Assembly (NCBI RefSeq): GCF_000429125.1
Contig: NZ_AUBG01000002.1
Span: 248,001-312,000 of the forward strand
Direction: 5' to 3'
Source: Aequorivita capsosiphonis DSM 23843
Lineage (GTDB): Bacteria > Bacteroidota > Bacteroidia > Flavobacteriales > Flavobacteriaceae
Length of the DNA stretch: 64,000 nt
This document shows, one piece after another, positions 3,851 to 6,861 of the stretch. A model generated the notes under the pieces. It was given only the letters and a program-made list of their open reading frames with translations. It had not been told where the DNA came from and made no database searches. Every line of letters starts with the position of its first letter. The first letter of the stretch is position 1. Position numbers and translations under genes: made by a program.

Positions 3851-4396
3851 TTAGATTTCAAAAGAATAGGCTTCTTTTTTCCCAATAACACCTTTGAAAG
3901 TAGATCGCAGATTTTTTAAATCTGAATCAATATTGCCAGTTGGGTAAAACGTGTCATTTATAATTATTGCTTTTTTCTTATAGTCGAAAGCCACACATAT
4001 TATGGGAACCTTTGCTGCCAATGCAATATAATAGAACCCGGTTTTCCATTCTGATACTTTTTTTCGAGTGCCTTCGGGCGCTATTGCGAGCCGAAATTCT
4101 TCTTTGCTCTTAAAAATTTCAGCGATTGCCTCTACTTTGTTTTGGCCCGGAGTACGATCTAATTTTTCCCCTCCGGTCCAACGAAAATACCAACCAAAGG
4201 GCCATCTAAACAATTCTTTTTTAGCGATATAGTTTATCTGGACTTTTGTTAATCTACGGGTAAATAGCCCCAGATAGAAGTCGTGCCAGCTAGTATGTGG
4301 CACAACTATTATAACGGCTTTTTTAACTGCGGGATCAAAAGCACCAACAATGTGCCAGCCCATCATTTTTTCAAAAACAAATTTTGAGATCCCCAT
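3851..4396 (-). CDS. PlsC-type 1-acyl-glycerol-3-phosphate acyltransferase family protein
   Basis: This short (181-residue) member of the PlsC/LPLAT family carries the HX4D catalytic motif as HTSWHD (residues 34-39), the substrate-binding EKLDR segment near 77-81, and PEGTR at 107-111. The family transfers acyl chains to lysophosphatidic acid or related lipids at the cytoplasmic membrane face. The protein is shorter than PlsC (~240) and resembles small Bacteroidetes paralogues of unknown acceptor. It starts 20 bp after the KdsB-KdnB gene and is probably in the same transcript. That context suggests an envelope lipid or lipid A substrate, but this is inference. Confidence 0.82.
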   Translation of the reverse strand: MGISKFVFEKMMGWHIVGAFDPAVKKAVIIVVPHTSWHDFYLGLFTRRLTKVQINYIAKKELFRWPFGWYFRWTGGEKLDRTPGQNKVEAIAEIFKSKEEFRLAIAPEGTRKKVSEWKTGFYYIALAAKVPIICVAFDYKKKAIIINDTFYPTGNIDSDLKNLRSTFKGVIGKKEAYSFEI

Positions 4397-4416: not shown

Positions 4417-6246
4417 CTACATTTTCAGATATAATTGTCTTAGTTTTTCACGCGTAATGGTCTCCTGCCAATTATCACCTAAGGCATTTTCCCAAAGAGG
4501 AACCATACTAAGTGCGACGGTTATCATAGTGTCCATTTCTTCTTCGGAAAGGTTTTTACAAATTCCCTGTGGAATTTCAACACCGTGTTTCTCTACCATC
4601 TTTTCGAAAAGCTTGACGTCTTTTGGATAAAACTCTTCTAGATATTGAAAAACAATACAGTTTCCAATGCCATGTTTTGTGCCTAAAACATAACCAAGAC
4701 CATAACTCATAGCGTGTGCCACTCCAACCTGTGAATAAGCAATGCTCATTCCACCGTGCCAAGAGGCCATCATCAATTTACCACGAGAATCTTCTTCGGA
4801 AAGATCATCTCCTAAAAATATTTCCATACATAAATCGTATGCTTTTTCGCCATAACTCTGGCTAAAGGCATTTAAGAAAGTACCGTTTAAGGATTCTACG
4901 CAGTGTATAAAACAATCCATTCCTGTATAAAACCACTGGTTTTTGGAAACGCCGGTGGTGAGTTTAGGATCGAGAATTACTTGGTCAAAAGGTGTAAAGT
5001 CACTATTGATTCCCAATTTGCGAACTGGCCCAGTAAGTACCGTAGTTCGCGAAACTTCAGCACCTGTGCCCGAAATTGTTGGAACGCCCACGTGATAAAC
5101 AGCTTTATGCTTTACTAGATCCCAGCCTTGGTAGTCGGCTGCACTTCCTTGATTTATAAGCATGATAGAAACGGCCTTAGCCATATCCATAACCGTTCCG
5201 CCACCAATACCTATAATACCGGAAGGAGTTTGGGTAAATTCGTTTTTAATTTCTTTTACTAAATCGTCAACTTGTGAAGTTCTTGGCTCTTCTTCTGTAG
5301 AAATGAAAATAAGTTTATCGTTAAATCGAAGGTTTATTCTATCTAAAAAAGCAGTATTTTCTTCAAAAACATCATCGACTAAAAATATAAATGGTGCTTT
5401 TTCCTTTTTCTGAAGCGAAAGAATGGAGGAAAGCTGATCAAAACATCCTTCACCAAAAACAACTTTTGGAACCATGGGAAAGTTTCGAAATTTATTATTT
5501 ACCGTTTCTGGCTTTTGCTCCTTGAGTAATTTATTAGCCCTGGCAAGATCTTCAGGCGTATCTATCTCAACACCTGATGTGTTTGAAATAACCATTTTTA
5601 TATTTTTACCATATTCCAAATAGCGGATACATTCAATTTTTTCCACCTCTTCCAAAGAACGCATGGGCAATCGATAAAAGTCCATAATGGCACTTTTTCT
5701 AAAGGCATAAATACCTTTGTGCTTATAATATTGTATCTCTACGTTTTTATCACGAGGATACGGAATTGGCGATCGCGAAAAATAAAGTGCAAAATCATCT
5801 TTATCTACAATAACCTTTACACAATTTGGATCGCTAATTTCTTTCCAATCGTGGATTTCTGTCATTAATGAAGCCAAATCTATCTTGTCTGCATCAGGTT
5901 CATTGAAGACTGCTAAAACCTTCTCCAGCCCTTCCCTACTTGTGAAAGGCTCGTCTCCTTGCACATTCACTACAATATCTACATCCATGTTTTCAACGGC
6001 CTCGGCAATTCGGTCGCTACCACATTCGTGCTTTTTTTGGCTCATTATGGCTTTTCCGCCGTTTCTTTCAATTTCGTTAAAAATTACGTCGCTGTCTGTT
6101 ACCACATAGACTTCATCAAAAAGATCTGTGGCCTTTGCGGCTTCATAAGTTCTAACTATCACGGGTTTTCCGCCCAAATCCTGCATAAGTTTTCCAGGGA
6201 ATCTAGACGCGCCGTAGCGGGCAGGAATCATTGCAATTATTTTCAA
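4417..6246 (-). CDS. KdsB-KdnB fusion: CMP-Kdo/Kdo8N cytidylyltransferase plus Kdo 8-oxidase
   Basis: This is one uninterrupted 609-residue frame. Residues 1-240 are a full-length KdsB ([16 protein letters not shown] at 5-20, NVQGDEP at 94-100), which activates Kdo with CTP. After a ~10-residue linker, residues 251-609 are an iron-containing alcohol dehydrogenase most like KdnB, the Shewanella Kdo 8-oxidase that makes the aldehyde later aminated by KdnA to 8-amino-Kdo. Motifs include IGGGTVMD (347-354) and GTGAEVSRT (393-401). The metal ligands Asp444, His448, His511 and His525 have the canonical D-x3-H, +63, +14 spacing. No KdnA lies in the window. The gene sits between DUF4126 (36 bp upstream) and a PlsC-type gene (20 bp downstream). 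The domain calls are firm; the 8-amino-Kdo product is inferred. Confidence 0.88.
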
Positions 6247-6282: not shown

Positions 6283-6861
6283 TTAAGTTCTTGGAGCTCG
6301 TTTTTTCCGAAGCTTTTTATAAAACCTAAAAATTAAGAAGAATAAGAAAACTACAAGTGCAAACGCGATAATAGGAACAAAGATGGAAGCTATGGCCATC
6401 ACAATGGAAGTACCCGTTTCCAATGTGGTCAAAACTGGATTTGCGAGTACTCCAGTGGTTGTGCTTGAAGTGAGCCTAGCAGCAGAAGTATTTCCTTTAA
6501 TTGCCGCTGCGGTTCCTCCCCCGGCAATAATAGCCAAAGCCCAAGTAACTGCCGGACTTAAATCGGTAACTGTAGCAACCATAACGGCTGTACCAGCCAA
6601 TGTTGCCAATGGCAAGGCAATGGTGTCCAGTAAATTATCCAACCACGGAATGTAATAACCAAAAATTTCAATTAGCGTAGCCACTCCCATCGTGATAACA
6701 GCCGTGAGACTTCCCACCCATTGCCAACTTTCATTTAAAGGAATTACATCATAAAAACCCGCTAAACTTAAAGCCAACAACGGCAAAAATACCCGAAACC
6801 CGACTGCCGCGGCAAGACCGATGCCGAGAAAGATGCTGATTATTATATCGAAAGTTTCCAT
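6283..6861 (-). CDS. DUF4126 family membrane protein
   Basis: This 192-residue protein is almost entirely hydrophobic with about five membrane segments. The N-terminal GIGLAAAVGFRVFLPLL block and the central glycine/alanine-rich IIAGGGTAAAIKG segment are typical of DUF4126 proteins, whose function is unknown. The C-terminus is basic (RFYKKLRKKRAPRT) and should lie in the cytoplasm. It is the first gene of a tight minus-strand group with KdsB-KdnB and the acyltransferase, which suggests an envelope role but does not prove one. Confidence 0.8.
   Translation of the reverse strand: METFDIIISIFLGIGLAAAVGFRVFLPLLALSLAGFYDVIPLNESWQWVGSLTAVITMGVATLIEIFGYYIPWLDNLLDTIALPLATLAGTAVMVATVTDLSPAVTWALAIIAGGGTAAAIKGNTSAARLTSSTTTGVLANPVLTTLETGTSIVMAIASIFVPIIAFALVVFLFFLIFRFYKKLRKKRAPRT

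Follow-up and report, generated by a model that had tools for sequence, protein, structure and literature searches.

We identified a fused kdsB-kdnB gene in Aequorivita capsosiphonis DSM 23843 (Flavobacteriaceae), within a stretch of 64,000 nucleotides (positions 248,001 to 312,000 of contig NZ_AUBG01000002.1; hereafter the window). The gene encodes one protein in which KdsB, the cytidine monophosphate (CMP)-Kdo synthetase, is followed by KdnB, an iron alcohol dehydrogenase of the Kdo 8-oxidase type. Kdo (3-deoxy-D-manno-oct-2-ulosonic acid) is the near-universal sugar that links lipid A to the rest of the lipopolysaccharide (LPS), and its 8-amino form, Kdo8N, is tied in Shewanella to resistance to cationic peptides. 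The fusion is very probably a bifunctional enzyme of Kdo8N synthesis: its KdnB half would oxidise Kdo, a separate KdnA would aminate the product, and its KdsB half would couple the amino sugar to CMP. The first-pass annotation of the window had offered this interpretation, and the comparisons with profiles, solved structures and related genomes given below support it.

The fused gene and its two domains

The 609-codon frame is uninterrupted and runs from 6246 to 4417 on the minus strand; the plus-strand reading of 4417-6246 contains many stops. The first-pass annotation had the frame and both domains right, and the strand is here corrected to minus. Features of the gene, in window coordinates, are as follows:

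4417..6246, minus strand: kdsB-kdnB fusion gene, 609 codons plus stop, with a TTG start at 6246
5515..6246, minus strand: KdsB domain (CMP-Kdo synthetase), residues 1-244
5494..5514, minus strand: linker, residues 245-251
4420..5493, minus strand: KdnB domain (Kdo 8-oxidase type iron alcohol dehydrogenase), residues 252-609
5566..5568, minus strand: Glu227 codon, candidate Kdo8N-recognition residue, two before Asp229
5560..5562, minus strand: Asp229 codon, paired through the match end points with 2y6p to D219, which binds Mg-A in the Aquifex enzyme
4915..4917, minus strand: Asp444 codon, metal ligand
4903..4905, minus strand: His448 codon, metal ligand
4714..4716, minus strand: His511 codon, metal ligand
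4672..4674, minus strand: His525 codon, metal ligand

The fusion is matched over residues 1-609, with no internal stop, in all 24 sampled genomes of the genus (the organism's own included), and 77 of the 80 titled loci are fused; the five titled records closest to the protein are all from Aequorivita, at 91-92% identity. Because the frame is kept across separately assembled genomes, it is not an assembly error, and we regard it as confirmed. Among the relatives inspected, TTG stands at the start position also in two close ones (L103 and L115; genomes, contigs, loci and families are cited by our own handles); L174, L176, L177 and L178 have other leucine codons there, so their start must lie upstream.

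KdsB occupies residues 1-244 and is predicted to activate Kdo or Kdo8N with cytidine triphosphate. Of five curated cut-offs for KdsB-type proteins, this domain reaches or exceeds three, NF003952 (270.5 bits; cut-off 193), TIGR00466 (193.5; 155.2) and NF009905 (255; 255), and falls below two, NF003950 (229.7; 234) and NF003948 (192.7; 281). It matches the KdsB structures of E. coli (3k8d) and Aquifex (2y6p) over the whole length with the active-site aspartates kept, and differs from both in being fused to KdnB and in having Glu, not Gly, two residues before the metal-binding Asp. These aspartates, D98 and D229, are invariant in 26 of 26 fused rows; a passage of PMC3149649 describes the binding of Mg-A in Aquifex KdsB by the active-site aspartates D95 and D219, and our position match to 2y6p is taken from the match end points, not from a printed alignment.

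The second domain (residues 252-607) scores best against two solved structures, PDB 3rf7 at 447.6 bits and 5k8c, which is named Kdo 8-oxidase, at 436.4 bits, with 54% of 355 aligned residues identical to the latter. We take both to be from Shewanella; the best other iron alcohol dehydrogenase among all solved structures reaches 83.9 bits. PF00465 and PF25137 are above cut-off in this half. The named NCBIfam models of iron alcohol dehydrogenases (lactaldehyde reductase, AdhE and ErcA among them) belong to the same superfamily, and the protein is far below the curated cut-offs of all of them (best ErcA, 126 bits against 550). The four ligands D444, H448, H511 and H525, with spacings of +4, +63 and +14, are exactly those named in the first-pass annotation, whose likening of the domain to Shewanella KdnB the structure scores bear out. 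They are invariant in 114 of 114 thinned relatives; a looser metal-site motif passes 152 of 153 rows, and the one row that fails the pattern (L232) yet has all four ligands in the alignment. The phylogeny that the annotation had proposed as a check sets the KdnB rows, together with 3rf7 and 5k8c, apart from two other proteins of the iron alcohol dehydrogenase family in the same genome (100/98 support); with its very long outgroup branches and its mostly poor resolution within the KdnBs, this tree shows the separation and nothing finer. A general alcohol dehydrogenase of unrelated function was rejected on the profile and structure scores and on the tree.

Shewanella KdnB oxidises Kdo at C8, using a metal and O2. 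It shares family and metal ligands with the window's domain and is, with 3rf7, the closest solved relative, whereas it forms a separate chain of 358 residues (5k8c) and not the C-terminal half of a KdsB fusion. The KdnB assignment is given in a passage of PMC5125639, with reference to Gattis et al. 2013.

Outside cellular genomes, KdnB had no match in the plasmid collection. One viral contig (IMG/VR IMGVR_UViG_3300017971_000228; L324 4986-10640) carries a KdnB relative of 40% identity with the metal-ligand motifs kept (by eye), adjoining an aminotransferase of DegT type and proteins that by eye resemble PseG and NeuA/PseF; we read this cluster as a sugar cassette that reuses a KdnB-type enzyme.

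Pathway genes in the genome and in the family

A search of the genome for a KdnA-like aminotransferase, as suggested by the first-pass annotation, found KdnA; the annotation's remark that KdnA is missing covers the window only. There are 11 DegT-family matches; the frames around the best five were read, and one, on contig C10 (L007:1477-2682), was compared with solved structures. It scores 502 bits against the Shewanella KdnA 5k8b, a Kdo8N transaminase, in a match that covers residues 1-394 (the runner-up has 181), and differs from it in being encoded on another contig, away from kdsB and kdnB. Apart from the fused gene, the genome yielded no KdsB: two further CTP_transf_3 matches, both on contig C3, are far below the KdsB cut-offs, and a second KdsB that would make the fused one dispensable was rejected. 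A WaaA-type transferase is represented by one match.

Contig C3 (L016, L017) holds a nonulosonate-type cluster. By eye it includes a NeuB-like synthase; two further proteins resemble cytidylyltransferases and reach none of the cut-offs, and one of these two adjoins a protein similar to KDN-9-phosphate phosphatase (205.7 bits; cut-off 180).

The proposed order of steps follows the Shewanella Kdo8N pathway as reportedly worked out by Gattis and co-workers in 2013. The KdnB domain would turn Kdo into an aldehyde by oxidising its C8 alcohol, KdnA, as a separate aminotransferase, would convert the aldehyde to Kdo8N, the KdsB domain would join Kdo8N to CMP, and the single WaaA-type transferase would place it on lipid A. 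With entry and exit enzymes held one to one and side by side, Kdo could be committed to the amino route before it is activated unmodified. An ordinary KdsB and KdnB would vie for the same free Kdo; fusion and a tuning of KdsB to the amino sugar may each lessen this competition, and in the tuning Glu227 of the KdsB domain probably assists by binding the 8-ammonium group. Such a fusion would be a natural construct for asking about pathway channelling.

Of 299 genomes sampled from the window's own family, 190 carry both KdnA and KdnB, which were known to the first-pass annotation only from Shewanella; 99 have neither, seven have KdnB alone and three have KdnA alone (thresholds of our own choice, best E-value <= 1e-140 for KdnB and <= 1e-100 for KdnA; lists transcribed by hand). 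Nine of these ten single-presence exceptions are assemblies at most 88% complete. The fusion occurs in 33 of the 299 genomes and 24 of 236 genera; 30 were identified by an unbroken frame, and three (G214, G124 and G239, the last at a contig edge) after reading of the DNA, which also showed that the end-to-end matches in G290 and G183 are separate genes. The fused arrangement, which according to the annotation would be new, is lineage-wide and not a single oddity. KdnA is found in 32 of the 33 fused genomes, and the exception is 76% complete. Among 296 genomes sampled across the phylum, 15 have KdnB matches of at least 58% identity and seven have a divergent KdnB (43-48%); the window's own genome is the only one fused, and G443 has two genes.

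Could the KdnB-like domain act on another sugar or carbon and so lead to something other than Kdo8N? To our knowledge, Shewanella KdnB is the only KdnB assayed, and the viral contig shows a KdnB relative beside other sugar genes. The table of PMC5125639, in its available portion, likewise has Shewanella KdnB as the sole entry for its subfamily. We nevertheless consider this very improbable, given the 54% identity to the solved KdnB, the fusion to the only KdsB found and the near-perfect co-occurrence with KdnA.

A second, divergent KdnA/KdnB pair (KdnB 43-48%, KdnA 41-45% identity) is found in seven genomes; the two genes are adjacent in G471, G571, G421 and G514 (L235, L233, L236 and L237) and unlinked in G029 (L046), G494 and G470. 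G191 has a divergent KdnB without KdnA.

Judged from gene content, the Kdo8N trait is apparently common among marine flavobacteria. That Kdo8N would be the normal inner-core sugar in much of the marine Flavobacteriaceae, served by a dedicated Glu227 KdsB and with KdsB welded to KdnB in one clade, strikes us as evenly balanced between true and false. If this genomic picture holds, a zwitterionic inner-core sugar would be a common trait of a large marine bacterial group, with a bearing on membrane charge, cationic-peptide resistance and reported marine LPS structures. In the passages available, the review PMC3210612 and the family survey PMC5125639 describe the amino form of Kdo as a Shewanella feature, and the Shewanella section of PMC4052302 mentions, for Kdo8N, also "other bacterial species". 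We found no report of Kdo8N or of a KdsB-KdnB fusion in Bacteroidetes, and no LPS paper on Aequorivita, in the open-licence literature, which is no proof of novelty.

Position 227 of KdsB

The residue two before the aspartate matched (by the 2y6p end points) to D219 of Aquifex, a catalytic Mg-A ligand, is associated with KdnB. An undirected, exploratory scan put position 227 first among 245 columns (phi 0.935, against 0.721 for the runner-up, position 177): it is Glu in 114 of 114 KdnB-linked KdsBs, and Gly in 37 of 40 rows from KdnB-less genomes (39 genomes, G191 being present twice as L234 and L252). With other families added, genomes that have KdnB contribute 119 KdsBs, all 119 with Glu227, as against 5 of 56 KdsBs from the rest, where "positive" refers to the presence of KdnB alone, KdnA having been scored in part of the rows, and where the negative G191 has a divergent KdnB; the positives include the identical pair L212/L315 (genome G282, without KdnA), and both this set and the KdsB tree omit the duplicate L234 and seven KdsB rows from genomes with the divergent pair (L295-L297, L316-L319). 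Among unthinned loci with both genes, the count is 153 of 153. E. coli KdsB and five aligned solved chains (two of which are E. coli KdsB) have Gly.

Glu227 probably recognises the 8-amino group of Kdo8N: if the chain is extended at 227, residues i and i-2 would face the same way, and the carboxylate could meet the 8-ammonium group. If this is true, Glu or Gly at 227 offers a cheap genomic prediction of Kdo8N versus Kdo LPS. Glu227 could also be a lineage marker that travels with kdnAB and has no part in specificity, which we consider possible but somewhat doubtful. On the KdsB tree with weak branches included, 12 independent contrasts give nine for the association, none against and three without difference (sign test of 9 versus 0, 0.004, which fails correction for 245 columns), and Gly appears in KdnB-less lines nested among Glu lines, both of which speak for specificity. 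So does a second family, f18: Glu227 is present in all four of its genomes that bear KdnB, with kdnB at least 3 kb from kdsB, and the residues in the three KdnB-less genomes that were read are G, A and G. For the marker count the choice of the best column out of 245, the fact that well-supported branches alone leave three independent contrasts (on average 1.9 agree, 0 oppose and 1.1 show no difference), and the two groups of genomes in which Glu227 and KdnB come apart, named next.

Several observations weigh against our reading of the fusion and its residue 227. Glu227 occurs without KdnB in five KdsBs (G154, G059, G233, G323 and G485), and the seven genomes with divergent KdnB and KdnA-like proteins have C, C, C, S, P, G and G at 227, with no Glu; G282, which is 99% complete, has KdnB and Glu227 with no KdnA. 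The AlphaFold model is middling (mean predicted local distance difference test score, pLDDT, 76.6; predicted template-modelling score 0.59; residues 226-233 and 241-258 under 50) and therefore gives no information on the Glu227 site or on the domain arrangement. The kdnA gene is unlinked to kdsB and kdnB in this genome; it is clustered with them in relatives such as L086, L087, L091 and L092, an arrangement that the chemistry does not require. For the fusion-bearing organisms themselves, no biochemistry or LPS structure was found in the open-licence literature, and passages of PMC9478572, on another flavobacterium, Bizionia argentinensis, treat its core as one with ordinary Kdo and describe the detection of Kdo-8-phosphate.

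G282 and the five genomes with Glu227 and no KdnB may be recent pathway losses.

Gene order and the origin of the fusion

Most unfused relatives keep the two genes together: of 77 unfused kdnB stretches (some genomes counted twice), 68 also contain kdsB, on the strand of kdnB, and the other nine, most of them just 4 kb long, hold kdnB only. There are three main unfused layouts, kdnA-kdsB-kdnB, kdsB-kdnB and kdsB-HAD gene-kdnB. The HAD gene is present in 51 of the 68 unfused loci with both genes and in none of 131 fused loci (some genomes again twice); it encodes a HAD-type hydrolase (for example L075:2529-3239) that is below all curated cut-offs (best TIGR02253, 52 bits). It had no match in the window's genome in a search made without a positive control, although the same protein matches relatives by BLAST. 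We also considered three-domain fusions, at which open frames of roughly 850 had hinted, in eight stretches (L075-L078, L081-L083 and L094; seven bore a long or longer-than-gene open frame). On re-reading, no stop-to-stop frame spans more than one gene; such fusions were rejected because the frames are those of single genes, with a HAD-type gene between kdsB and kdnB.

With the junction columns omitted, 114 thinned rows, 58 of them fused, give a tree on which all 58 fall, together with a single unfused row, into one clade (98% by the Shimodaira-Hasegawa-like approximate likelihood-ratio test), and two changes of state suffice, so many independent fusions are not supported. L169 and L172, unfused and close to this clade, were lost in thinning, so the count of state changes may be low. 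The linker is 6-10 residues long in most fused relatives and 16-18 in an Aquimarina/Mesonia-like group, and these two length classes would fit a pair of separate fusions as well as a single one with later remodelling and loss.

The chemistry may hold while the fusion is functionally idle, kdsB and kdnB having merged by stop-codon loss into two enzymes that act independently; we give this nearly, though not quite, even standing. In unfused loci without the HAD gene, the gap between kdsB and kdnB is -8 to 44 bases in 15 of 17 (478 in the other two, from one genome), and seven of the eight printed junctions are in frame, as a merger by stop loss would have it. It is also consistent with the unfused loci that border on the fused clade or fall within it (on the tree, L084; L169 and L172, which share the same unfused KdnB start), with fused linkers that vary in sequence, and with KdnB being unfused in most KdnB-bearing genomes of the family. 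An idle junction sits less well with the constancy of the fusion, which is kept in 58 of the 59 thinned rows of its clade (L169 and L172 being absent from these), and with a linker length of seven residues in 115 of 131 fused loci, duplicates included.

Two genes flank the fusion on the same strand:

3851..4396, minus strand: acyltransferase gene (PF01553), 20 bases downstream of the fusion
6283..6861, minus strand: DUF4126 protein gene, 36 bases upstream of the fusion

Acyltransferase-like genes adjoin kdnB in some unfused relatives too (L076, L084 and L085 by eye, that of L085 also scanned), and the enzyme might act on lipid A or on another membrane lipid. DUF4126-like genes are likewise seen, by eye, upstream of kdsB in some unfused relatives.
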